Assembly: GCA_018303655.1 (NCBI GenBank)
Contig: JAGVXT010000009.1
Coordinates: 1-46,133 of the forward strand
Direction of reading: 5' to 3'
Source of the DNA: Candidatus Woesearchaeota archaeon
GTDB taxonomy: Archaea > Nanobdellota > Nanobdellia > Woesearchaeales > GW2011-AR4
Length of the DNA stretch: 46,133 bases
Part shown: in pieces, positions 20,277 through 34,279 of the stretch
How positions within the stretch are numbered: position 1 is the first letter of the stretch
How the letters are laid out: the number at the start of each line of letters is the position of its first letter
The notes under the pieces: model-generated
The model's input: the letters and a program-made list of their open reading frames with translations, nothing else
Told to the model about the DNA's origin: nothing
Databases searched by the model: none
Made by a program: the position numbers and the translations under genes

Positions 20277-20957
20277 TTACTTTACTTCTTTCTCTACCTC
20301 TAATTTTTCCCCCACTTTTACAGGCTTGCCCATTGTGAGCTTGATGTAAATGTCCTTTATGTTGTGCTTTTCGTTCGGCAAAACTTGCAGTAATGAGCTG
20401 TAAACAGTCAATGCATTTTCAGCAACATCCTTGATGTCCATATCCTCTGTGCCTATAGGGCATTGGATTAAAGGGGCTGTCTTGTTGATTGCCCTTACAG
20501 TTTTCTGGAGCTTTTCATATAAAGGTTTTAGGTTTGCGTTTGGAGGCACTACACTTCCTGACTTGGGGTTTGGCATCTTTCCCCTTGGACCAAACACTCT
20601 TCCAAATGCAGTTGCCACCTTCGGCATTATGTTTGCCTGCGCAATAAAGAAGTCAAACCCGTTTGCAACCTTCTTGATGTCTTTCTTGTCCTTGTATTTC
20701 TGGAAATCATCGGACATTATTGTAAAATCAAAGATTTCCTTTGCATGCTGTTCCAGTTCCGGACCAATCAAAGCGCATACCTTTACCTTCTTTCCCCTTG
20801 AATGCGGCAATGTGACAAATGCATCTATCTGGTGCTCCTGCTTCTTCGGGTCAATCCCTTTTAAATTTATGATTAAGTCATAGCTTTGCCTGAAGTTCCT
20901 TTTCTCAGAAATGTCCTTTGCCTTTGCTAATGCTGATTGTATTTGCTCTTTGTCCAT
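20277..20957 (-). CDS. rpl1: 50S ribosomal protein L1
   Basis: NFRQSYDLIINLKGIDPKKQEHQIDAFVTLPHSRGKKVKVCAL...VFGPRGKMPNPKSGSVVPPNANLKPLYEKLQKTVR. Confidence 0.97.
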   Translation of the reverse strand: MDKEQIQSALAKAKDISEKRNFRQSYDLIINLKGIDPKKQEHQIDAFVTLPHSRGKKVKVCALIGPELEQHAKEIFDFTIMSDDFQKYKDKKDIKKVANGFDFFIAQANIMPKVATAFGRVFGPRGKMPNPKSGSVVPPNANLKPLYEKLQKTVRAINKTAPLIQCPIGTEDMDIKDVAENALTVYSSLLQVLPNEKHNIKDIYIKLTMGKPVKVGEKLEVEKEVK

Positions 20958-21369: not shown

Positions 21370-23337
21370 ATGAAGCGCGATAAATCTCTAAGGAAGCTAT
21401 TGTCATCGAAGAAATCACAAAGCTCGTTGTTTGGGCAGCAGATTGCTGATGACACGCAAGTCAAGGAAGAAAAAAGAGTGAATGTTCTTGATACTATTAA
21501 TTCTCCAAAAGAGCTTAAAAAACTGGACAGGCAGCAGCTTAAATTTCTTGCCCAAGACATAAGGGATGAAATTATAGGTGTTGTTTCCAAAAACGGCGGC
21601 CATTTGGGAGGCCCATTGGGAGCTGTTGAGCTGACATTGGCTGTGCATTATGTATTTGACGCGCCTCATGATAAAATTGTGATAGACACAGGGCACCAAA
21701 GCTATCCCCACAAGCTTGTTACAGGGAGAAGAGACAATTTCCACACATTAAGGCAGTACAAAGGAGTATGCGGATTTTGCAACATTGAAGAGTCAGAATA
21801 TGATGTCTTTGGAGCAGGGCATGCTTCAACTGCAGTATCAGCAGCTTTAGGAATTGCAAAGGCAAGAGACTTCAAAAATGAAAACCGTAAAGTTGTTGCC
21901 ATTGTTGGGGATGGAGCAATAACAGCAGGATTGGCATTTGAAGGATTAAATAATGCAGGCTCTTCCAAAACAAACATTTTGGTTATTTTGAATGACAACA
22001 GGATGAGCATCTCCTCAAATGTAGGCGCTATGTCCAATTACCTAAACAAGATAGTTTTGCATCCAGGCTACTTTGGCTTAAGGAAAAAAACCGGCAATTT
22101 TCTGAGAAACATAGGCATTGCAGAAGAAAGCGTTTACAGGCTGAGCAAGGCAGAGGAATTGTTAAGGACATTAGCAACCCAGGGATTGTTTTTTGAAAGC
22201 ATGGGCTTCCAGTATTTTGGCCCTATTGACGGGCACAATATTGATGAATTAATACCGGCTTTGCAGAATGTCAAGGATTTGAAAGGGCCTGTTTTATTGC
22301 ATGTCAAGACAGAAAAGGGGAAAGGCTACAGGTTTGCGGAAAATGACATGGAAAAATTTCATGGAATGTCCAAGTTTGACCCAATCAACGGCCAGAAATA
22401 TGTCACAACAACCAACATAAGCTGGACAGATGCATTTGCAAACGCATTGATAAGGATTGCAAAGGAAGATGAAAGGATTATTGCAATAACCGCAGCAATG
22501 AAAGGAGGCACCGGATTAAATAAGTTTGAGAAGTATTTTCCTGAAAGGACATTTGATGTAGGCATTGCAGAGCAGCATGCAGTCACATTTGCAGGGGGAT
22601 TGGCAATTTCAGGGATGAAGCCTGTGTGCGCAATTTACTCAACCTTTTTACAAAGGGCTTATGACCAGATTATTCATGACATATGTTTGCAAAATCTTGG
22701 AGTTATATTTGCGCTTGACAGGGCTGGATTGGTTGGAGATGACGGCCCAACTCATAACGGTCCATTTGACATAGCTTATTTTAGAGTAATCCCTAATGTG
22801 ACAATAATGGTTCCAAAAGACGAGAATGAGCTGCAGCACATGCTTTACACTGCAACTTTGATTAATGGGCCCTGCACTTTGAGGTATCCAAGAGGAGCAG
22901 CAATCGGAGTTGGCCTCGATCCTGAATTAAAAAAGCTTGAAATTGGAAAAGGAGAATTAATTAAAGAAGGAAATGACTTATTGATTTTGGGAGTAGGGCC
23001 TATTTTGTATGATGCAATGCAGGTTGCTGAAGAGCTGAAATGCAATGCAACAATCATTAATGCAAGATTTGTCAAGCCTTTGGATGAAGAATTGATTTTG
23101 AGCTATGCGGGAAAAATAAAAAACATAATCACGCTTGAGGAAGGAACTGTGAATGGCGGCTTTGGAAGCGCTGTCTTGGAATTATTAAACAAGAATGGAA
23201 TAAAATCCGATATAAAAATTATAGGAGTGCCTGACAAATTCATCGAGCACGGCAAGCCGGATATACAAAAGAAACTGGCTGGAATTGACAAAGAAAGCAT
23301 AAAGAATACAATAATGGAAATCTTAAGCAAGAAGTAA
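21370..23337 (+). CDS. dxs: 1-deoxy-D-xylulose-5-phosphate synthase
   Basis: HLGGPLGAVELTLAVHYVFDAPHDKIVIDTGHQSYPHKLVTGRRDNFHTLRQYKGVCGFCNIEESEYDVFGAGHASTAVSAALG; TPP motif GDGAITAGLAFEGLNNAG...LNDNRMSI; FDVGIAEQHAVTFAGGLA. Confidence 0.98.
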   Translation: MKRDKSLRKLLSSKKSQSSLFGQQIADDTQVKEEKRVNVLDTINSPKELKKLDRQQLKFLAQDIRDEIIGVVSKNGGHLGGPLGAVELTLAVHYVFDAPHDKIVIDTGHQSYPHKLVTGRRDNFHTLRQYKGVCGFCNIEESEYDVFGAGHASTAVSAALGIAKARDFKNENRKVVAIVGDGAITAGLAFEGLNNAGSSKTNILVILNDNRMSISSNVGAMSNYLNKIVLHPGYFGLRKKTGNFLRNIGIAEESVYRLSKAEELLRTLATQGLFFESMGFQYFGPIDGHNIDELIPALQNVKDLKGPVLLHVKTEKGKGYRFAENDMEKFHGMSKFDPINGQKYVTTTNISWTDAFANALIRIAKEDERIIAITAAMKGGTGLNKFEKYFPERTFDVGIAEQHAVTFAGGLAISGMKPVCAIYSTFLQRAYDQIIHDICLQNLGVIFALDRAGLVGDDGPTHNGPFDIAYFRVIPNVTIMVPKDENELQHMLYTATLINGPCTLRYPRGAAIGVGLDPELKKLEIGKGELIKEGNDLLILGVGPILYDAMQVAEELKCNATIINARFVKPLDEELILSYAGKIKNIITLEEGTVNGGFGSAVLELLNKNGIKSDIKIIGVPDKFIEHGKPDIQKKLAGIDKESIKNTIMEILSKK

Positions 23338-23469
23338 CTTTTTGATTTTTTAAAATACTATATTTTGATTAATGCGGTGTGAAAGATAAAAAACAATCAA
23401 TTAACACAGCAAACTCACATTAATAAAAACATTACAAAAACTAAAATTGAAAAATTGTGTTAAAATAAT

Positions 23470-24279
23470 ATGACAATACAAGAAGAAATACAAAGAATAC
23501 TGGAATTGTGGTATAATAATATTAAGCCTGAAGCAAGAGGAGACTTATCTAATCTTTGGGAACATAGGGCAGAATTAGGCGAGTTGGAAGCAATTGTAGA
23601 AAGATTAGAGCCTAAAGTTATCAAGCTTTTAGAAGTAATCCCGACATTAAAAAGGCATTCGCATGAGTATCATGCACGCACAGTTGATTTAGTAAAATTG
23701 CTTCATCATTTTAATAAATATTCCAAGGATGAATGGATACAAAAAGTTACTTCAGATTTAGATTATATGTCTAAAGAAATAACCCAAGCAAGAAATCAAG
23801 CAGAAGGGATTTTAAGAAGTAAAAGGCATGAAGAAAGACAAGGATGGCAAGATCGAAGTTATCTTAAAAAACCGACAATTGATTATAAAGAACTTGAAGA
23901 TGTTGGATATGAAATATTAAAAACAATATACCCACAAGGAAGGGCGCACCCTTTATCACGATTATCCAATTTAAGACAATGGCTCAACCAAAAGTACCAA
24001 TCAGTCAAAGTTCATCCATTGATAGAAGCAGGTGTTGGAGACTTATGGCTACTAGTTGTATTAACACTTGATGAAAAATATGGCATAGCGGTGCCAGCAC
24101 TCGATTCTGTTATAGGATCTGGTGGACTAATCATGGAATATTACGAAGGCGGACGATACAATGGAACACAAATGTTAACAGACGGAAATATTTTGACATT
24201 AGCAAAAGCCGAATATGATAGCTCTAATAGAGAATGGAGAGCTAAAGAGAAAGGAAGAATACAGCTATCAAGCTATTAG
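23470..24279 (+). CDS. Hypothetical protein
   Basis: Intact 269-aa ORF between dxs and ispG; no family recognised. Confidence 0.6.
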   Translation: MTIQEEIQRILELWYNNIKPEARGDLSNLWEHRAELGELEAIVERLEPKVIKLLEVIPTLKRHSHEYHARTVDLVKLLHHFNKYSKDEWIQKVTSDLDYMSKEITQARNQAEGILRSKRHEERQGWQDRSYLKKPTIDYKELEDVGYEILKTIYPQGRAHPLSRLSNLRQWLNQKYQSVKVHPLIEAGVGDLWLLVVLTLDEKYGIAVPALDSVIGSGGLIMEYYEGGRYNGTQMLTDGNILTLAKAEYDSSNREWRAKEKGRIQLSSY

Positions 24280-24294
24280 TTTTCAATCAATAAA

Positions 24295-25353
24295 ATGCTG
24301 CAAAGAAGAAAATCGCGCAAAGTAAAAGTCGGAAAATTGTACATTGGAGGAGATGCGCCTATAAGTTTGCAGTCAATGACAACAACAGACACAACTGATG
24401 TAAATGCAACTGTTGAACAGATTCATGGACTTGAAGAGGTTGGCTGCGAGATAATAAGGGTTTCTGCCCCTACAATGGAGGCAGCAAAGGCATTGAAGGA
24501 AATCAGGGAAAATATCAACATTCCTCTTGTTGTTGACATTCATTTTGACTACAGGATTGCATTGGAGGCTGTGAAGCATGTTGACAAATTAAGAATAAAC
24601 CCCGGCAACATTGGAAATCCTGACAAGGTGCAGCAAGTTGTAAATTCATGCAAGGATTATGGTGTTCCAATGAGAATTGGAGTCAATCTTGGCTCTTTGG
24701 AAAGGGATTTATTTGAAAGGCATGGTTATGCTCCTGAAGCAATGGTTGAGAGCGCAATGCGCCACATCAAAATTCTTGAGGACTTGGATTTTTATGACAC
24801 AATTGTTTCATTGAAAGCATCTGATGTTCCTCGAATGGTGCAGGCATACAGATTGTTTGCCGAAAAAACAGACTATCCATTGCATCTTGGAGTTACAGAA
24901 GCTGGCTCTAAAATTCCAGGCACTGTGAAATCAGCGATGGGCATGGGCATGCTTCTTTCAGAAGGCATTGGCGACACAATAAGGGTTTCTTTAAGCGAGG
25001 AGCCAAAGGAAGAAGTGAAAGTTGGAAAGCATATCTTGAGGGCGCTTGGCTTGAGGAATGAAGGAGTTCAGGTTACATCATGCCCAACTTGCGCAAGGAC
25101 AGAGATTGATGTTATACATCTGGTTGAGCAATTGGAAAATGCGACTGAAAAATTAAAAAAACCAATCAAAGTTGCTGTTATGGGCTGCGCAGTCAATGGG
25201 CCTGGTGAAAGCAAGAAATCAGACATTGGAATTGTAGGAGCGCCTGGAAATCATTTGTTGTATAAGGAAGGCAAGATTGTAAGAAGGGTAAATGACAATG
25301 AAATCATGCAAGTTCTTTTGAAGGAGATAGAGGAGATGGCGAATGGGGATTAG
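24295..25353 (+). CDS. ispG: (E)-4-hydroxy-3-methylbut-2-enyl-diphosphate synthase
   Basis: QSMTTTDTTDVNATVEQI...LVVDIHFDYRIALEAVKHVDKLRINPGNIG; Fe-S ligands TSCPTCART and VMGCAVNGPGES. Confidence 0.98.
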   Translation: MLQRRKSRKVKVGKLYIGGDAPISLQSMTTTDTTDVNATVEQIHGLEEVGCEIIRVSAPTMEAAKALKEIRENINIPLVVDIHFDYRIALEAVKHVDKLRINPGNIGNPDKVQQVVNSCKDYGVPMRIGVNLGSLERDLFERHGYAPEAMVESAMRHIKILEDLDFYDTIVSLKASDVPRMVQAYRLFAEKTDYPLHLGVTEAGSKIPGTVKSAMGMGMLLSEGIGDTIRVSLSEEPKEEVKVGKHILRALGLRNEGVQVTSCPTCARTEIDVIHLVEQLENATEKLKKPIKVAVMGCAVNGPGESKKSDIGIVGAPGNHLLYKEGKIVRRVNDNEIMQVLLKEIEEMANGD

Positions 25354-25361
25354 AGAATGAA

Positions 25362-26021
25362 ATGATAAACATTATCAGACTACTTCTTTTGATTGTAATT
25401 TCACAATTATTATTGAACATTGTTTTAGCATCTTCAGATTGTGCTTTTAATGTTGATGGACAAAAAGCAAAAATAATAGATAATTGTAAAGTTATAGAGA
25501 CTAGAGAAGGTGATAAATTAAAAATAACTTTCAATGATTGTCAAAAAATAAATAATGTTCTATATGAATACACAAAACTTGATGGAGAACCATTGTATAA
25601 TATTAATGTAGGACGTCACATTGAAAAAAACATTTTGGTTTATAATGATAACTTTGTATCATATGATGGCTTTCTCAAAACTATAATCTATATAAATTAT
25701 GTATATTGTGATGAAGAAAACTTAAAATATGTTATCTCAGTAAGAGTATATCCATCAGAACACTTTGCCTCAGAACCAACAATAAGTCATCAGACTAATG
25801 ATAGCATTCAACCACAATCTATCACTAACATAAATACTGATAAGATTCAAATAAATTATGGAGATAAAAATACACAAAACACTCCTAATAATTTAAATCT
25901 TATAAAAGACTTTATTTTTCCTATAGTAACTGGTATAATAGTCATTATCTTTGGAAAAATTGTAATTGATAGATATTCTTTAAAGAAAAATAAAACTAAA
26001 AAACCAAAATCTAAATCCTAA
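25362..26021 (+). CDS. Hypothetical protein with N-terminal signal and C-terminal TM
   Basis: IIRLLLLIVISQLLLNIVLASS at the N-terminus; FIFPIVTGIIVIIFGKIVI then basic tail. Confidence 0.6.
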   Translation: MINIIRLLLLIVISQLLLNIVLASSDCAFNVDGQKAKIIDNCKVIETREGDKLKITFNDCQKINNVLYEYTKLDGEPLYNINVGRHIEKNILVYNDNFVSYDGFLKTIIYINYVYCDEENLKYVISVRVYPSEHFASEPTISHQTNDSIQPQSITNINTDKIQINYGDKNTQNTPNNLNLIKDFIFPIVTGIIVIIFGKIVIDRYSLKKNKTKKPKSKS

Positions 26022-26140
26022 TGCTTAACCTATAGTTTCTTCCTCTTATTCAGCTGCGCTATCACCCAAGTGTCAAACAGCCATTTTTAGGCAATTAAAA
26101 CCGTAACATTTAAATAACAGTTGTATTTTTTATAATACAA

Positions 26141-26713
26141 ATGTCACAAAAAAAAGACAAAGGCAAGATACTATTTTTCAGAGAAAGTGTGTTTAAGGTA
26201 GCCGAGCTTATTTTTAATAATCCAAATAAAACATTCCATATTAGAATGCTCGAAAAGGAAACTGGATTTTCTACTACTGCTGTTATAGATGTTATTGAAG
26301 AACTTAAAAAATATGAGATAATTACAATAGAGGAAACACCATTAACTACAAATGTTAGAGCTAATCTTGAATCTGAAGTTTATCGCTTTTATAAGCTTGT
26401 GTTTAATCTATACAGGCTAAAAAGATACCTATTTGTTGATAACCTAATAGATATTTTCAACAATCCAGAAGCAATTGTTTTGTTTGGCTCATTTGCCAAA
26501 GGCGAGGATATAGAAGAAAGCGATATAGACATACTTGTTATTTCTTCTCAAAAAAATAATGAAAACTTAGAAGATTTTGTGAATCTTTTTGAAAGAGAAC
26601 TAAATCGTAAGATTAATATCCATATCTTGCATTCTCTTGCTAAAAGCTCAAATGAATTTAAAAATGCTGTAGCCAATGGCATTGTTTTACATGGCTATCT
26701 AAAGATTATATGA
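26141..26713 (+). CDS. HTH plus MNT-type nucleotidyltransferase (probable antitoxin)
   Basis: N-terminal wHTH-like region; VLFGSFAKGEDIEESDIDILVIS nucleotidyltransferase motif. Confidence 0.88.
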   Translation: MSQKKDKGKILFFRESVFKVAELIFNNPNKTFHIRMLEKETGFSTTAVIDVIEELKKYEIITIEETPLTTNVRANLESEVYRFYKLVFNLYRLKRYLFVDNLIDIFNNPEAIVLFGSFAKGEDIEESDIDILVISSQKNNENLEDFVNLFERELNRKINIHILHSLAKSSNEFKNAVANGIVLHGYLKII

Positions 26714-27147
26714 TGATAAACTCATTTAAAAATTATCTGAATAACGGGTATGTAAAGAAAAAAACACCCGATTCTGAAGAAGCTAAAGCTCTTTTAGAAA
26801 AGGCAAAAAATAGACTTGAATATACTAAGTCTAGGGAGATAAAAGATAAAACTTCTCAATTTGTATTAGAAGATGCTTATGAATCTATAAGGGAATCTGC
26901 ACAAGCTCTCATGTCTATTAAAGGCTTTAAGCCATATTCTCACGAAGCCACAATCAGTTTTATTAAAGAATTCTACAGCTCTGATTTTGATGAAACAGAA
27001 TTGCACAAGTTTGACCGCTTTAGGCAATTACGGAACAATTCAATTTATATGGCTAGACCAGTAACTAATGAGGATGCAAAAGCATCTGTATTATTCGCCG
27101 TAGAATTTATAAACAAAGTAAGGCTACTATTAACAAAATTAAAATGA
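26710..27147 (+). CDS. HEPN-domain protein (probable toxin partner)
   Basis: Overlaps the MNT ORF by 4 nt; helical, with FDRFRQLRNNSIYMARPVTNEDA resembling the HEPN RNxxx(H/Y) region. Confidence 0.75.
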   Translation: MMINSFKNYLNNGYVKKKTPDSEEAKALLEKAKNRLEYTKSREIKDKTSQFVLEDAYESIRESAQALMSIKGFKPYSHEATISFIKEFYSSDFDETELHKFDRFRQLRNNSIYMARPVTNEDAKASVLFAVEFINKVRLLLTKLK

Positions 27148-28304
27148 AACACCTATCAGTTTTAGGCTCAACAGGCAGCATCGGCACTCAAACATTGGAA
27201 ATAGTCAAGCAATTTCCTGATGAATTCAAGATTGTTGGGCTGACAGCAAACAAGAATTCTGATTTATTGCTTAAACAAATCAAAGAATTCAAGCCAAAGG
27301 CAGTTGCAATAATGGACATCAGCAAGGTTGATGACTTGCTGAACTTTAGTTCTGCTAAAGTTTATTCCGGCATTGAAGGATTGAACAGGATTGCAGCAAT
27401 GCAGGAAGCGGACACTGTTGTTAATGCCCTTGTGGGAAGCATAGGCATCGATCCCACTTATAACGCAATCAAAAATAAAAAAAACATTGCATTGGCAAAC
27501 AAGGAAACTTTGGTTGCAGCAGGTTCTGTAATTATGGAAGAAGTTAAAAAAAATAATGTAAGCATGATGCCAATTGATTCAGAGCACAGCGCCATTTTCC
27601 AGTGCCTTAATGGCGAAAACATAAAAGAAGTCAGCAAAATAACAATAACGTGCTCAGGAGGCCCGTTCAAAAACCATACAATGCAGCAATTGGAGAATGC
27701 AAGTGTTCATGACGCCTTAAACCATCCTACATGGAATATGGGCAATAAAATAACAATTGATTCCGCAACCTTGATGAATAAGGGATTTGAAGTTATAGAA
27801 GCGCACTGGCTTTATGGAATCGACTATGAGAAAATTAAAATTGTGGTCCATCCGCAAAGCATAGTGCATTCTTTAGTCCAGTTTGATGATAAATCAGTTA
27901 TTGCGCAGCTTGGGCTGCCTGACATGAAAATTCCTATCCAGTATGCATTAACTTATCCAAAAAGATTTCAAAACTTCAGCAAATCACTGGATTTGGCAGA
28001 GATAAAAAATCTTGAATTTAGTGAACCAGATTTTGAAAAATTCTCCTGCCTGAAATATGCTTATGAGGCAGGAACTGTTGGAGGAACACTGCCAGCGGTT
28101 ATGAATGCTGCCAATGAAATTGCTGTTCTAGCTTTCCTGGAGAATAAAATAAGATTTTTGGACATACCAAGGCTGATAAGAAAAATGATGGAAGAGCACA
28201 ATTTAATAAAAAATCCAGATTTAAAGGATATTCTTGAAATTGATAAAAAAACCAAGGAAGAAACCAACAAAATCATAGAAGAAAAACTGATTGTTGAAAG
28301 CTAG
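27144..28304 (+). CDS. dxr: 1-deoxy-D-xylulose-5-phosphate reductoisomerase
   Basis: LGSTGSIGTQTLEIVKQFP; ALANKETLVAAGSVI; PIDSEHSAIFQCL; NHPTWNMGNKITIDSATLMNKGFEVIEAHWLYGI. Confidence 0.98.
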   Translation: MKHLSVLGSTGSIGTQTLEIVKQFPDEFKIVGLTANKNSDLLLKQIKEFKPKAVAIMDISKVDDLLNFSSAKVYSGIEGLNRIAAMQEADTVVNALVGSIGIDPTYNAIKNKKNIALANKETLVAAGSVIMEEVKKNNVSMMPIDSEHSAIFQCLNGENIKEVSKITITCSGGPFKNHTMQQLENASVHDALNHPTWNMGNKITIDSATLMNKGFEVIEAHWLYGIDYEKIKIVVHPQSIVHSLVQFDDKSVIAQLGLPDMKIPIQYALTYPKRFQNFSKSLDLAEIKNLEFSEPDFEKFSCLKYAYEAGTVGGTLPAVMNAANEIAVLAFLENKIRFLDIPRLIRKMMEEHNLIKNPDLKDILEIDKKTKEETNKIIEEKLIVES

Positions 28305-28421
28305 ATTATTTTTTAGTTATTTTTAAAATTTTTTTAATAAAAATGCGTTGAGAAAGAAAGTAAAACATTATTTTAACATTAAACATAATAAAAACAAATA
28401 TTGGAATTAAACCCCTCTAAA

Positions 28422-29588
28422 ATGAATTTTGCAATAATTGTCGCTGCCGGCAAAAGCAAAAGAATGAGGAATAATAAAAATAAGATATTTCTTCCGTTAT
28501 TAAGCAAGCCGATGGTTTATTATGCATTAAAAGATTTCCAAAACTGCAAGCTGATAGATGAAATCATTGTTGTAGCGCAAAAAAACGGCATCAAAAAAAT
28601 CAATGAAATAAAACAAAAATATAATTTCGGTAAAATAAGCAATGTTATTGTTGGAGGAGAAGAAAGGCAGGATTCTGTTTATAATGGATTGATGTCAATA
28701 AAGAATGCTAAAAATGAGGATATTGTTATTGTGCATAATGGAAGCAACCCATTGGTAAAGGAAAATGAGATTATAAACTGCATCAATGCTGCAAAAAAGC
28801 ATGGCGCTGCTGTTCTAGGATTTCAATTAAAGGACACAATTAAAAAAATAAGCAATGATTTTATTGAAAAAACAATAGACAGGGCTAATGTATATCAGAT
28901 GCAAACCCCGCAATGTATCAAATATGGCTCGTTTATTGAAGCCTTTAGTAATGCAAACAAAAAAAAGCTGAAATTTACCGATGATATTTCACTTGTTGAA
29001 GCCATTGGCAAAAAAGTAAAAGTTGTTGACTGCTCTTATGATAACATAAAGATAACAACGCAGGATGATATGAAAATTGCAGAAGCAATATTGATGAGAA
29101 GACACAATATAACGGCTTCCAGAACCGGATTCGGGCAGGACAGCCATAAATTCTCTGTTGACAGGGGCAAGAAACTGGCATTAGGGGGCTATACAATCCC
29201 AAATGAAATCGGACTGGAAGCGAATTCCGATGGAGATGTTATTCTGCATGCTTTGTTCAATGCGATAAGCTCAGCAATAGGAGAAAAATCGCTTGGCTTT
29301 TATGCAGATCCAATGTTCAAAAAAGGCATAACAGACAGCAAAGAGTATTTGAAAGTGATTTTGAACAAATTAAGCAAAAAAAACCTTAAAATAAACAATG
29401 CCAGCATCATGATAGAGGCAAAAAAGCCAAAACTGGAAAAATATACCGGCAATATCAAAAATTCGCTGTCAAAAATACTAAACCTGGAAAAAGAAAAAAT
29501 CGGGATTGCCTACACTTCTGGAGATGAATTGACTGCTTTCGGGCAAGGCAAGGGAATGCAGTGCTTTGTGGTTGTTAGCATTGCTTAG
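28422..29588 (+). CDS. ispDF: Bifunctional IspD-IspF fusion (MEP cytidylyltransferase / MEcPP synthase)
   Basis: IspD: FAIIVAAGKSKRM...KIFLPLLSKPMVYYAL, IVHNGSNPLV, QMQTPQCIKY, TDDISLVE. IspF: SRTGFGQDSHKFSVDRGKKLALGGYTIPNEIGLEANSDGDVILHALFNAISSAIG. Confidence 0.97.
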   Translation: MNFAIIVAAGKSKRMRNNKNKIFLPLLSKPMVYYALKDFQNCKLIDEIIVVAQKNGIKKINEIKQKYNFGKISNVIVGGEERQDSVYNGLMSIKNAKNEDIVIVHNGSNPLVKENEIINCINAAKKHGAAVLGFQLKDTIKKISNDFIEKTIDRANVYQMQTPQCIKYGSFIEAFSNANKKKLKFTDDISLVEAIGKKVKVVDCSYDNIKITTQDDMKIAEAILMRRHNITASRTGFGQDSHKFSVDRGKKLALGGYTIPNEIGLEANSDGDVILHALFNAISSAIGEKSLGFYADPMFKKGITDSKEYLKVILNKLSKKNLKINNASIMIEAKKPKLEKYTGNIKNSLSKILNLEKEKIGIAYTSGDELTAFGQGKGMQCFVVVSIA

Positions 29589-30427
29589 CTTTTTACCCCA
29601 ACTAACATGTTGTTAAAGGGAGATACACTATGGGGATAAATTCTAACAACTCTTGCGTCGTAACCAAGATGCCTAAGATTTAGAGCTCTGTGGTAGTCAA
29701 TTATATCCATAGCTTTTCTTGCCACTGCCCGATACCCATCTTCAAGTTGAAGGTATTCTACTGCCCTTCTCAGCAGGTTAAAAATATCACGACTCAAACT
29801 AATTTTAGATGCCAAGTTTGATAATTCAAATTCCATTTTTTCATGGTGGCATGGCAAAATCCCAATGAAATCAGGCATCCTCTGCTGAAGTTCAGCGTAT
29901 CTAACTATTAAATCTGCAAGGCTTCCACAACAATATGTTCCTACATAAGCCACTTTTCCTTTTGGACTCTCTGGGATAGTTGGAACATGTTGCATTGATG
30001 TCAAGGATTTCAAATCAAATGGTATTTTTGTTATGCCGTATTCTTTTGTACAGGGAAAAATTTTTTCTACTAAATTCTTTTTCGAAAATCTCCTATCACT
30101 TCTCACTACTTGAGGGCCAATCAGATGGGCAAGACTATAAGCTAGCTCCCCTCTTCCGGAGCACCAGTCAACATAATCCACATCTGGTCTCAAGAAACCA
30201 TATTTTGCAAGCTGGCTCAAAAAAGCCCTTAATACACTTATTTTTATTTCATGGGCGGTTGTCCTTAGTTCCCTTGTTGCTTTTTCCAAGCCACTCAAAA
30301 CATCATCATCTTTAAGCAACCTATCAACAGCCCCTGAGACTTTCCCATCCACTATTTCTGTATCTAAATTTAATCTTCTGTGAATCCCCCTTATCAAGGT
30401 AACTCTTTCATCCAAAGTGCCTTTCAT
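29585..30427 (-). CDS. Rossmann-fold methyltransferase-like protein
   Basis: FLRPDVDYVDWCSGRGELAYSLAHLIG, and GTYCCGSLADLIVRYAELQQRMPDFIGILPCHHEKMEF reminiscent of TRM13-like CCH motifs; family assignment tentative. Confidence 0.55.
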   Translation of the reverse strand: MKGTLDERVTLIRGIHRRLNLDTEIVDGKVSGAVDRLLKDDDVLSGLEKATRELRTTAHEIKISVLRAFLSQLAKYGFLRPDVDYVDWCSGRGELAYSLAHLIGPQVVRSDRRFSKKNLVEKIFPCTKEYGITKIPFDLKSLTSMQHVPTIPESPKGKVAYVGTYCCGSLADLIVRYAELQQRMPDFIGILPCHHEKMEFELSNLASKISLSRDIFNLLRRAVEYLQLEDGYRAVARKAMDIIDYHRALNLRHLGYDARVVRIYPHSVSPFNNMLVGVKS

Positions 30428-30493
30428 AGTCCTTAGGTTGATACCTTGTTTTTTAAAACTTACTCTTAACCGTCAAATTCGCAAATATTATAT

Positions 30494-31366
30494 ATGAAAA
30501 TAATATCTCAGCCAATTATGCCAGTGCCATCATACGCAAAAATCAACCTTTACCTCAAGATAGGCAAGAAACTAAGCTCCGGCTACCATAACATACAATC
30601 AGTTATGCAGATGATAGAGCTGAGCGACAGCATCTCCATTGAGCCTATAAATGAGGACAAGATCATAGTTGATTCAACAAACATGGAGCTGAGCGGTGAG
30701 GAGAACCTTGCGTACCAGGCAGCTTTGCTTCTCAAAAAGAAATTCAAAGTAAAGCACGGTGTCAAGATATTTGTCGAGAAAAATGTGCCCCTTGAAGCCG
30801 GCTTGGGAGGCGGAAGCAGCAACGCGGCAACCACTCTGCTGAACTTAAACAAATTATGGGGCCTGAAGCTCAAGGAAAAGCAGCTGGTTGAATTAGCCTC
30901 GCAAATCGGCTCGGATGTTCCGTTCTTTATAGGGGAAAATGCAGCCTTGGTTGAGGGAATTGGCGACAAAATAAAGCGCATAAAGAAGTCATTCAGCATA
31001 AACATCGTGCTTATAAACTCAGGGTTCAGAGTATCAACTAAATGGGCGTATGCCGCATTTGACAGGCAAAAGCCTAAAATAAAAACAAAAGCAGACATAA
31101 ATGCGCTTGTCAAGGCCATAGAAAAAAAAGACATAAAGGAAATAGCTAACAACCTTCACAACGACTTTGAGCCCATTGTCACAAAAAAATATAAAATGAT
31201 AAATGATATCAAGAACAATCTGCTGAGAAATGACGCGCTGAATGCGCTGGTTTCCGGCTCTGGCCCTACAGTTTTCGGAGTTTTCAACAGCATTTATGAG
31301 GCAAGGGAGGCATTTTTCAAGATACAGTATGATTATCCTTTTGTTTTCTTGACAAAAACTATTTAA
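30494..31366 (+). CDS. ispE: 4-diphosphocytidyl-2-C-methyl-D-erythritol kinase
   Basis: SYAKINLYLKIGKKLSSGYHNIQSVMQMIELSDSI; PLEAGLGGGSSNAATTLLNLNKLWGL; VSGSGPTVFGVF (GHMP kinase). Confidence 0.96.
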   Translation: MKIISQPIMPVPSYAKINLYLKIGKKLSSGYHNIQSVMQMIELSDSISIEPINEDKIIVDSTNMELSGEENLAYQAALLLKKKFKVKHGVKIFVEKNVPLEAGLGGGSSNAATTLLNLNKLWGLKLKEKQLVELASQIGSDVPFFIGENAALVEGIGDKIKRIKKSFSINIVLINSGFRVSTKWAYAAFDRQKPKIKTKADINALVKAIEKKDIKEIANNLHNDFEPIVTKKYKMINDIKNNLLRNDALNALVSGSGPTVFGVFNSIYEAREAFFKIQYDYPFVFLTKTI

Positions 31367-31416
31367 GTTAGAAGTAAATAATGGTATTAGGGGGACGTGG
31401 TTAAAGCCAAATTAGA

Positions 31417-32373
31417 ATGGAAATCAAGGTAGCAAAGCACGCAGGATTCTGCTTTGGCGTGAAGAAAGCAATTGAAATTGCAGAGGAAGTTGCGCAAAGC
31501 AATGACGGAAATACCTATGTTCTTGGCCAGCTTGTGCATAATGAGAAGGTTATAAAAAATCTCGAAGGCAAGGGCATCGTTTTTGTTGATGACATAAATG
31601 AAATTCCACAAAATGCTGTTACTGTGCTTAGGGCCCATGGCGAGCCTGGAACCACATACGCCACTCTTGGGGAAAAGTCCATTGTAAAAGGCAAAAACCT
31701 CAATGATGCAACATGCCCTTTGGTTACTTTGGTGCATAATGTTGCGATTAAGCTGAAAAACAATGGATATGAGGTTGTTATTTTCGGCAAGCATAATCAT
31801 CCGGAAGCAATCGGCACAAGCTATTATTTGAAAGGCAAAAATACGCTTATTGTGGAGCATGAAGATGATTACCGAAAAGTTATTGATTACATTAATGAAA
31901 ACAACTTCCAGAAGATTGCAGTCATTTCGCAAACAACAATGTCTGTTTTGGGGTATAAAAAACTGATTGAAAACATTAATAATGAAATGAATCATCAGTT
32001 TGAAGAAATTCCCCTGTCGCTGAAAAACCTTGATGTAAAATACGGGTTTGTTGACACAATCTGCAACCCGACAAAACAAAGGCAAAGCGATGTGGATGAA
32101 TTGGCGAAAGACTGCGACATAATTATTGTAATTGGCGGCTTAAACTCAAGCAACTCAAAAGAGCTTTATGCAAAATCGCTGGAATACGGAGTTGAATCTT
32201 ATTTTATCCAGTCAGAAGAGCAATTGCAAAAGGAATGGCTTGAAGGCAAAGAAAAGATTGGAGTTACTGCAGGAGCCTCAACTCCGGATTATCTGATTGA
32301 TGAGGTTGTTGAGAGGATAAAAAATATAAATAATACTAATAACGAATTAATGAAACAAAGACAAAAAAATTAA
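31417..32373 (+). CDS. ispH: 4-hydroxy-3-methylbut-2-enyl diphosphate reductase
   Basis: AKHAGFCFGVKKAIEIAEE; VLRAHGEPG; DATCPLVTLVHN; VDTICNPTKQRQSDV; VTAGASTPDYLIDEV. Confidence 0.97.
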   Translation: MEIKVAKHAGFCFGVKKAIEIAEEVAQSNDGNTYVLGQLVHNEKVIKNLEGKGIVFVDDINEIPQNAVTVLRAHGEPGTTYATLGEKSIVKGKNLNDATCPLVTLVHNVAIKLKNNGYEVVIFGKHNHPEAIGTSYYLKGKNTLIVEHEDDYRKVIDYINENNFQKIAVISQTTMSVLGYKKLIENINNEMNHQFEEIPLSLKNLDVKYGFVDTICNPTKQRQSDVDELAKDCDIIIVIGGLNSSNSKELYAKSLEYGVESYFIQSEEQLQKEWLEGKEKIGVTAGASTPDYLIDEVVERIKNINNTNNELMKQRQKN

Positions 32374-32736
32374 TTCAAACACGTCTTTGTATTAGTTTTT
32401 CCAATATACCACTTTCCTCAACAGCCACCTTAACATCTTTTCCACTTGGATGAGGATGTGGAGATGATGGTTCCAGTTCAAATGTTGCCAAATATTTTCT
32501 TACATTAGTTACATTTACATTTCCAGTCAATAAATAAAGAGATACAGAAGCACGACCATAAATAACTTTTCCGTCCTTGTAATCTATCCCCTACTTTGAT
32601 GAACTTCAATTCTCACTTTGCCGCGTGGCATCGTAGGTTTAAATTTAGGGGGAATTGATAAATGAGGGTGTTTCACATAATTGGCATTTACAAAATCTCT
32701 ATTTCTATCTGTTGGAACAATATTATACTTTGCCAT
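32374..32736 (-). pseudogene. Hypothetical ORF frameshifted at a GGGG tract
   Basis: MAKYNIVPTDRNRDFVNANYVKHPHLSIPPKFKPTMPRGKVRIEVHQSRG(stop); the next frame continues IDYKDGKVIYGRASVSLYLLTGNVNVTNVRKYLATFELEPSSPHPHPSGKDVKVAVEESGILEKLIQRRV. Confidence 0.5.
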
Positions 32737-32751
32737 TTTATTTTTTTCAAC

Positions 32752-33207
32752 TCACTCGCTAAAAAATCCGCTTCTTGTTGCGTCAAACTTCCAGTTCTCC
32801 GGAATCCTGCCGGTTCTCTTGTAGTATTTGGTAAGCCTGTTTATTTTTGACTGTGTCAATAGCAAGCCGCGCTTTGAAGTCTGGTCATGCTTATTGGCTT
32901 CTATATGCTTTCTTAGCGCTGCAACTTTTTTAAATAAAGAAATCATGTCTTCAGGCACTTCCGCGCTTAAATTCTTCTCTTTTAGGACAGCGCTTATTGA
33001 TTTGCCGCATAAGGCCAATGCATTCGGGATTCCGTAAACATCCCTCAATATCATTCCAATTTGGGAAGTTGTCTTGCCGTCCTTTGAAAGCTTTGCTATC
33101 AGCAGTTCGACTTCCTTTGGCTTGTACCTTATCCATGACGGAGCTGTCTTCTTTGCCGGTTTCTTTGAGCCGTGCTTTCCCTTCTTCCTTGAGTGCATTC
33201 TTGCCAT
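32752..33207 (-). CDS. rps15: 30S ribosomal protein S15
   Basis: MARMHSRKKGKHGSKKPAKKTAPSWIRYKPKEVELLIAKLSKDGKTTSQIGMILRDVYGIP...LTKYYKRTGRIPENWKFD. Confidence 0.97.
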   Translation of the reverse strand: MARMHSRKKGKHGSKKPAKKTAPSWIRYKPKEVELLIAKLSKDGKTTSQIGMILRDVYGIPNALALCGKSISAVLKEKNLSAEVPEDMISLFKKVAALRKHIEANKHDQTSKRGLLLTQSKINRLTKYYKRTGRIPENWKFDATRSGFFSE

Positions 33208-33553: not shown

Positions 33554-34279
33554 TTATGAGTTAAACACTTTAGTGAATTGTTTTATATTTCTATCGTTGC
33601 TAGACCAAATCTCTTTATAAAATCTTTTGATTTCTTCCTTTCTAGAGATATAAATTTTAGTTCCGAATACTGTCCTTTTTCCACATATCTTGGACGGGTG
33701 ATAACCTAAATTTATCAAAGCTTCTCTGGTGTCTCTTAGCAATGTTATGTTCCTGTTCTCAAAATTAATCTGGAACAAGCCCGGCCAATGAGGCAGCATT
33801 TCATAAATACAGCCATCTGTATCTATTAACCCCCTTATGCACGCTTTTAAATATGCATCATTTTCCTTAATCCAATTCTGTATTGTAACTTGACTTTTTA
33901 TTTTGTTGCCGTGCTTTAATCCAATTTCAATTAAAAAATCTACGATTAATCTACCATCAATTATAAGATAAATACAATTTACATTTGGCTGTTTGTATGT
34001 CCTAGGCTTAACCATAAAAAGGTCTTTACATAAATTTGCTACATAATTCGTAAGATATTCGTAATCTTTTATGTAATTTCCAGCTATTCTTAAAGAGTAA
34101 GTCCCTACATCTTTGCCTTTTTTATAAGCATGTAGATTCCCATCGCCAAGAATTATGCCAACAAGCTCTGCTAATCTTTCACTCTTTTCAGGAAAATTGA
34201 TAATTTTAATGCTTCCCCAATTTTTATGTTCTTTCAAATACTCTTCTTTTGTTTTCTGAATCATCTTCACAACCTCCAA
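33554..34279 (-). CDS. LAGLIDADG homing endonuclease-like protein
   Basis: Two dodecapeptide-like motifs, LAELVGIILGDGNL and LKACIRGLIDTDGCIY, spaced about 100 aa apart. Confidence 0.9.
   Translation of the reverse strand: MEVVKMIQKTKEEYLKEHKNWGSIKIINFPEKSERLAELVGIILGDGNLHAYKKGKDVGTYSLRIAGNYIKDYEYLTNYVANLCKDLFMVKPRTYKQPNVNCIYLIIDGRLIVDFLIEIGLKHGNKIKSQVTIQNWIKENDAYLKACIRGLIDTDGCIYEMLPHWPGLFQINFENRNITLLRDTREALINLGYHPSKICGKRTVFGTKIYISRKEEIKRFYKEIWSSNDRNIKQFTKVFNS

Follow-up and report, generated by a model that had tools for sequence, protein, structure and literature searches.

A set of genes for all seven activities of the methylerythritol phosphate (MEP) pathway of isoprenoid precursor synthesis lies on a 46,133-nucleotide stretch of DNA (the window; contig JAGVXT010000009.1 of assembly GCA_018303655.1, Candidatus Woesearchaeota archaeon), and these genes are under strong purifying selection in an archaeal genus in which sequence searches detect no searched step of ether-lipid synthesis. 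The explanation that fits best, with a probability of roughly 0.6, is that the genes form a complete, functional MEP pathway that came from bacteria and is passed down within the genus, that this pathway replaced the mevalonate pathway, and that it would deliver its products to a polyprenyl glycan carrier instead of to ether lipids. The window forms contig 3 in a genome of 1.26 Mb and 37 contigs (88% complete, 0.9% contaminated) that belongs to the Woesearchaeota, order Woesearchaeales. Family searches covered 147 relatives within the Woesearchaeales, 20 of them in the genus of the window, and all of these genomes are metagenome-assembled genomes (MAGs). The identities of the MEP genes were assigned from NCBIfam equivalog scores compared with curated cut-offs.

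The MEP genes and their archaeal setting

Six uninterrupted open reading frames (ORFs) on the + strand between positions 21370 and 32373 encode the seven MEP activities, each above its curated cut-off, with IspD and IspF as domains of one protein. The features of the region are as follows.

21370..23337, + strand: dxs, 1-deoxy-D-xylulose-5-phosphate synthase, 655 amino acids (TIGR00204 838.8 bits, cut-off 465.95; thiamine diphosphate motif, catalytic motifs GDGA and IAEQHA)
24295..25353, + strand: ispG (gcpE), hydroxymethylbutenyl diphosphate (HMBPP) synthase, 352 amino acids (PRK00366 503.7 bits, cut-off 345; 4Fe-4S cysteines 263, 266 and 298; motifs CPTC and NGPGE)
27144..28304, + strand: dxr (ispC), deoxyxylulose phosphate (DXP) reductoisomerase, 386 amino acids (PRK12464 542.9 bits, cut-off 461; aligned to PDB 6mh4; motifs DSEH and NKGFEVIEA)
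28401..29588, + strand: ispDF fusion, MEP cytidylyltransferase and methylerythritol cyclodiphosphate (MEcPP) synthase, 395 amino acids (TIGR00453 215.4 bits, cut-off 181.3; TIGR00151 142 bits, cut-off 116.45; compared with the bifunctional IspD/IspF of PDB 1w55; IspD motif AAGKSKRM, IspF motifs GQDSH and SDGDVILH; probable start codon the in-frame ATG at position 28422, not the TTG at 28401)
30494..31366, + strand: ispE, cytidine diphosphate methylerythritol (CDP-ME) kinase, 290 amino acids (TIGR00154 253.7 bits, cut-off 138.7; motif GGGSSNAA)
31417..32373, + strand: ispH (lytB), HMBPP reductase, 318 amino acids (TIGR00216 267.1 bits, cut-off 187.85; Fe-S cysteines C12, C100 and C216; motif NHPEAIGT)
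32374..32751: gap between ispH and S15, empty in the window (synteny; no geranylgeranyl diphosphate (GGPP) synthase match above noise by tblastn)
20277..20957, - strand: archaeal ribosomal protein L1, left flank (PF00687 154 bits; junction conserved)
32752..33207, - strand: ribosomal protein S15 of archaeal/eukaryotic type (S13_N and S15), right flank (PF08069 88.9 bits, PF00312 51.6 bits)
26141..27147, + strand: nucleotidyltransferase (NTase) and HEPN pair that separates ispG from dxr and resembles a type VII toxin-antitoxin system (PF18765/PF01909, PF05168)

The catalytic and Fe-S residues of the MEP enzymes are conserved, based on a motif check and on PDB alignments. The original prediction, made from the letters of the window, is thereby upheld in placing seven intact activities on one strand of this interval and in seeing diagnostic motifs in each enzyme. 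It was also correct in placing archaeal ribosomal genes about 0.4 kb away on either side (412 bp from L1 to dxs and 378 bp from ispH to S15). By family matches the left flank (L1, L10, and L12) and the right flank (S15) are all of archaeal/eukaryotic type, and an archaeon carrying a pathway of bacterial-type enzymes is what was found. Its description of the MEP genes as a cluster stands for their co-location and not for contiguity, since the ORFs at 23470 and 25362, the NTase/HEPN pair and, on the opposite strand, a TRM13-like ORF (29585-30427) are interspersed. Within the genus, dN/dS is 0.063-0.083 for the MEP genes, compared with 0.077 for ribosomal protein L1 and 0.100 for S15.

Genes of a bacterial kind within a MAG might be explained by an assembly chimera or by bacterial contamination, but the L1/dxs junction is shared by ten further genomes (L001, L002, L003, L004, L005, L008, L179, L181, L183, and L185), as is the ispH/S15 junction (L004, L005, L008, L179, L181, L183, L184, L185, L187, and L188), all from separate assemblies. 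The internal order dxs-ispG-dxr-ispDF-ispE-ispH is the same across the woesearchaeal junction loci, and the woesearchaeal Dxs sequences form a single clade in a phylogenetic tree (support 99). A chimera was therefore rejected and retains next to no probability, in agreement with the original prediction. The same prediction had named two kinds of evidence against it, reads that fail to span the junctions with the ribosomal genes and absence of the cluster from independent genomes of the lineage; the recurrence of both cluster and junctions answers the two. The Dxs tree, in which the bacterial sample is biased by the query patterns and which covers a single Isp protein, gives a support of 35 to the bacterial sister group, and no donor of dxs is claimed. 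Passages of Huang et al. (PMC8421398) place ispDF closest to a bacterium of the candidate phyla radiation (CPR).

A 6-kb contig labeled Candidatus Nomurabacteria GW2011_GWA2_40_9 (LBZW01000026.1, locus L006) carries dxs-ispG-dxr-ispDF with 71-84% identity to the window; in the tree, the Dxs of this contig falls inside the archaeal genus. It is probably a mis-binned woesearchaeal contig, and records of this type could mislead donor inference.

Precursor supply and ether-lipid steps in the genus

Dxr was identified in 17 out of 20 genomes of the genus and in 42 out of 147 relatives overall. HMG-CoA reductase, the marker by which the mevalonate pathway was judged, matched the control archaea but neither the genome of the window nor any of the 20 that make up the sample of the genus. 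Among all relatives it occurs in seven out of 147 and coincides with Dxr in only one of the 42 Dxr-bearing genomes (G020). The MEP cluster thus appears to be the only recognizable source of isopentenyl diphosphate (IPP) and dimethylallyl diphosphate (DMAPP) in the genus. The original prediction had left it open whether the MEP pathway replaced mevalonate synthesis or acts alongside it. Coexistence in the same cell could draw on G020, a relative from the same family that has both enzymes, but was rejected on the distribution of HMG-CoA reductase (the one enzyme of that pathway covered by the search) and is given only a very small probability; replacement, as part of the best explanation, fits better. 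In G020, the sole relative of this kind, the reductase lies in an open frame of 1036 amino acids, and two PlsC-type genes share its contig.

That archaea carry the MEP pathway, with its co-location and ispDF fusion, is already known from reports of 2018-2024, and to this extent the original prediction's discovery had been anticipated. Castelle et al. 2021 (PMC8204110) and, as cited, Castelle and Banfield 2018 described the pathway, co-located and near UbiA, for a woesearchaeal clade represented by 52 genomes. Huang et al. 2021 (PMC8421398) report Woesearchaeota with MEP only, a fusion of ispD and ispF in the genomes of subgroup J, and missing geranylgeranylglyceryl phosphate synthase (GGGPS) and digeranylgeranylglyceryl phosphate synthase (DGGGPS), and Zhang et al. 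2024 (PMC10936187) repeat the MEP observation. The genome of the window agrees with these accounts (Castelle 2018/2021; subgroups F/J of Huang 2021) in its bacterial MEP set, co-location, fusion and lack of a mevalonate pathway, and, as far as the passages on subgroup J go, in lacking GGGPS/DGGGPS. It differs in that the cluster of Castelle et al. 2021 has UbiA nearby whereas the cluster of the window and its genus are without GGPP synthase and UbiA. UbiA near the cluster, looked for as a sign of membership in that clade, was found neither here nor genus-wide, L009 from outside the genus has it, and it is not a strict clade criterion. The passages of these papers do not mention that the trans-prenyl synthase is lost, nor the glycosylation genes and the PlsC-PlsC-GpsA locus described below, and a term search of open-access passages retrieved no earlier description of a MEP pathway uncoupled from trans-prenyl and ether-lipid synthesis and combined with such genes, although prior reports are possible.

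The trans-prenyl synthase family (PF00348) is absent from all 20 genomes of the genus, compared with its presence in 55 out of 147 relatives and 14 out of 14 controls in the same search. A profile built from the aligned GGPP synthases of sister genera also matched none of the 20 genomes at E<=10 (this search had no positive control of its own; the PF00348 search supplies one). Based on the listed completeness values, and assuming independence, the chance that incompleteness hides a universal gene in all 20 genomes is ~1e-17. The GGGPS family (PF01884) gave no genuine match in the genus but sub-threshold fragments only, and matches to it, partial and mostly sub-threshold, were rejected as GGGPS. 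UbiA (PF01040, DGGGPS) is represented in the genus by just a stop-riddled fragment in G018. Five matches to the glycerol-1-phosphate (G1P) dehydrogenase family PF13685, inspected in the genome of the window, G001, G016, and G019, were all rejected as AroB, PurE, or iron-containing alcohol dehydrogenase (no more than 55 of the 413 bits required by NF002022). Each searched ether-lipid step is thus undetected by family matching, and the searches for HMG-CoA reductase, GGPP synthase and GGGPS that the original prediction had called for yielded nothing genuine in the genus. Its implied purpose for the pathway, archaeal isoprenoid membrane lipids, is contradicted by the lack of detectable trans-prenyl synthase, GGGPS, and UbiA.

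Synteny points in the same direction. In six loci from sister genera and other families (L009, L190, L191, L192, L193, and L195) ispH is followed by GGPP synthase, after which S15 is the next recognized gene where it falls within the locus (L009 has UbiA before S15), and in L197 and L198 a GGPP synthase lies beside the cluster. The corresponding position between ispH and S15 is empty in the genus of the window, and a GGPP synthase remnant in the window was rejected because the best tblastn match (E 0.16) lies outside the 378-bp gap and at noise level. Overall, PF00348 is lacking in 26 out of 42 Dxr-bearing genomes: 17 of the window's genus, four of genus g11, G025, G038, G078, G095, and G105. 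Since the MEP genes are kept under selection where GGPP synthase is gone, they appear to be kept for a function other than GGPP for ether lipids.

Alternatively, the pathway might still serve archaeal ether lipids through products imported from a host (e.g., GGPP or archaeol precursors) or through unrecognized non-homologous enzymes. Archaea of the DPANN group are often host-dependent and can carry host lipids (the Nanoarchaeum/Ignicoccus case, cited in a passage of PMC5059525), and a gene of the geranylgeranyl reductase (GGR) family, usable on archaeal lipids, is retained. However, three ether-lipid families are without a match in 20 genomes, the clusters of sister genera retain a GGPP synthase, the neighbor of the GGR gene is AglB and not a set of lipid genes, and full supply by a host would make a selected MEP pathway superfluous; this alternative is considered unlikely.

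A proposed glycan-carrier sink

The only prenyl chain elongase detected in the genus is a cis-prenyltransferase, present in 18 out of 20 genomes and intact in the genome of the window (G000:C4:12625-13275, motifs DGNRR and RTGGE). The oligosaccharyltransferase STT3/AglB is likewise present in 18 out of 20. In the genome of the window, aglB (C32:58953-62111, minus strand; STT3 117 bits; motif WWDFG) adjoins a family 2 glycosyltransferase (GT2) gene similar to AglJ/PpgS, a GGR family gene (179.5 bits, curated cut-off 158.8) and a putative S-layer protein gene. Wherever a contig end does not interrupt the locus, the genus shows the order GGR-AglB-GT2, with the exception of L234, in which no GGR was recognized; sister genera have this order too, and in many loci an S-layer-like gene lies beside it. 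Archaeal enzymes of the GGR, GT2, and AglB types make and use dolichyl phosphate.

In the proposed scheme, IPP and an allylic primer, either derived from DMAPP or scavenged, would be polymerized by the single cis-prenyltransferase, the cis-polyprenyl product would be partly saturated by the GGR family enzyme to a dolichyl-type phosphate, the AglJ-like GT2 would charge this phosphate with sugar, and AglB/STT3 would use the charged carrier to glycosylate surface (S-layer) proteins. Gene content, gene order and selection are observed; every enzymatic step of the scheme is inferred from them.

Two known systems resemble parts of this scheme. The bacterial route from MEP to undecaprenyl phosphate uses the same enzymes, and a cis-prenyltransferase places the product into a glycan carrier. 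Bacteria first make farnesyl diphosphate (FPP) with a trans-synthase (IspA, PF00348), an enzyme that is undetectable in the genus of the window, and the acceptor machinery here is archaeal AglB rather than peptidoglycan enzymes. Archaeal N-glycosylation on dolichyl phosphate shares the adjacent AglB/STT3, AglJ-like GT2 and GGR genes, with an S-layer-like gene in several genomes, but here the C5 units would come from MEP instead of mevalonate and GGPP synthase was not detected in the genus.

Several points weigh against a glycan-carrier sink. The primer is the weakest of them: the usual starting substrates of cis-prenyltransferases are FPP or GGPP, products of a trans-synthase, and with that enzyme missing, DMAPP priming or an imported primer must be assumed. 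DMAPP-primed cis-prenyltransferases exist in plants (neryl diphosphate synthase), and this synthase is among the relatives in the PDB match list of the genome's own enzyme. Furthermore, many relatives without any IPP pathway keep a cis-prenyltransferase, so that its presence alone is no proof of flux, the cis-prenyltransferase gene (UppS) adjoins neither the MEP nor the AglB genes, and the evidence comes from sequences of MAGs, with a genome 88% complete. Most of the 147 relatives lack Dxr as well as HMG-CoA reductase, yet 122 have a cis-prenyltransferase above the cut-off; prenyl import by woesearchaeal cells that lack an IPP pathway is plausible.

Other sinks were also considered. MiaA-dependent tRNA prenylation was rejected because MiaA is present in none of the 20 genomes, and UbiA-dependent lipids or quinones because UbiA is absent from the genus. 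The pathway might feed a sink that was not recognized, such as an isoprenoid that is exported to supply a partner cell, or a small terpenoid; many ORFs in the genomes of the genus have no family match, and a primer for the cis-prenyltransferase has to be assumed. On the other hand, the conserved cis-prenyltransferase and glycosylation genes provide a sufficient sink, and users of the MiaA and UbiA types were sought and not found, which leaves such a sink with a low probability, well below that of the polyprenyl glycan carrier.

Membrane-lipid genes, neighboring genes and biological meaning

If isoprenoids go to a glycan carrier, membrane lipids would be made by a separate bacterial-type GpsA/PlsC route from de novo and/or scavenged fatty acids. 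PlsC-type acyltransferases were identified in 17 out of 20 genomes of the genus, 10 out of 10 bacterial controls and none of four archaeal controls. Contig 15 of the window's genome carries two tandem PlsC genes and GpsA (406 bits, cut-off 257) beside archaeal uS2; the PlsC matches reach the Pfam cut-off and fall under that of TIGR00530 (87.2 of 102.95 bits). G001, G008, G010, G016, and G019 share the conserved order radA-PlsC-PlsC-GpsA-uS2, and G025 and G064 have related arrangements. The fixed place of PlsC-PlsC-GpsA among archaeal genes speaks for a function retained by vertical descent, and the locus points to bacterial-type phospholipids. The genome of the window also encodes a CDP-alcohol phosphatidyltransferase and a fusion of AMP-binding, acyl carrier protein (ACP) and PlsC domains that resembles an acyl-ACP synthetase/acyltransferase; a FabG was likewise seen in the inspected regions. 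Weighing on the other side, the acyl-lipid search covered GpsA and PlsC out of the set of enzymes that a full bacterial-type membrane would need.

GpsA and PlsC homologs acquired from bacteria are also mentioned for archaeal MAGs in passages of earlier work (PMC6431249; Castelle et al. 2021; PMC11868695). Coleman et al. 2019 (PMC6431249) regarded a membrane role of archaeal PlsC/PlsY as improbable in view of their patchy distribution, whereas here PlsC-type genes occur in 17 out of 20 genomes with a fixed order from radA to uS2 in the inspected loci, and a passage of PMC11868695 suggests that Woesearchaeia may modify host bacterial lipids. A further, tentative proposal, with odds somewhat short of even, is that the genus crossed the lipid divide to an acyl membrane on sn-glycerol-3-phosphate, built with GpsA and the two PlsC-type enzymes of the fixed archaeal locus, lost all its ether-lipid genes and kept the bacterial MEP pathway only for an AglB polyprenyl carrier that the cis-prenyltransferase makes without a trans-prenyl synthase.

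Among the genes interspersed within the cluster, the NTase/HEPN pair is a passenger outside the MEP pathway; its NTase is MntA-like but under the curated cut-off, and the pair recurs in L179 (G001). The TRM13-like methyltransferase ORF between ispDF and ispE is present at this site in only some relatives (L008 and L187) and looks like a movable passenger. Family searches with the ORFs at 23470 and 25362 gave no match. On the right side dph5 and ftsZ lie beyond S15, and between S15 and dph5 there is a LAGLIDADG-domain ORF (33554-34279), a free-standing homing-endonuclease-like gene that is matched at about this position by ORFs of L181, L184, L187, and L188. Elsewhere in the genome (G000:C32:1039-3298, L223) a phosphonopyruvate decarboxylase (514 bits, cut-off 312.5) adjoins a PsrA-like iron alcohol dehydrogenase, a pair that possibly represents phosphonate biosynthesis in a DPANN archaeon.

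The genome comparison separates the supply of isoprenoid precursors from membrane-lipid synthesis, with MEP selected where the ether-lipid route is gone, and the new question is the purpose of an archaeal MEP pathway rather than its existence. Two questions become testable: can an archaeon live with a bacterial-type membrane, and is a trans-prenyl synthase dispensable when a cis-prenyltransferase builds a glycan carrier? If the proposed explanation is true, such archaea would be sensitive to MEP inhibitors (e.g., fosmidomycin) and invisible to archaeal lipid biomarkers.

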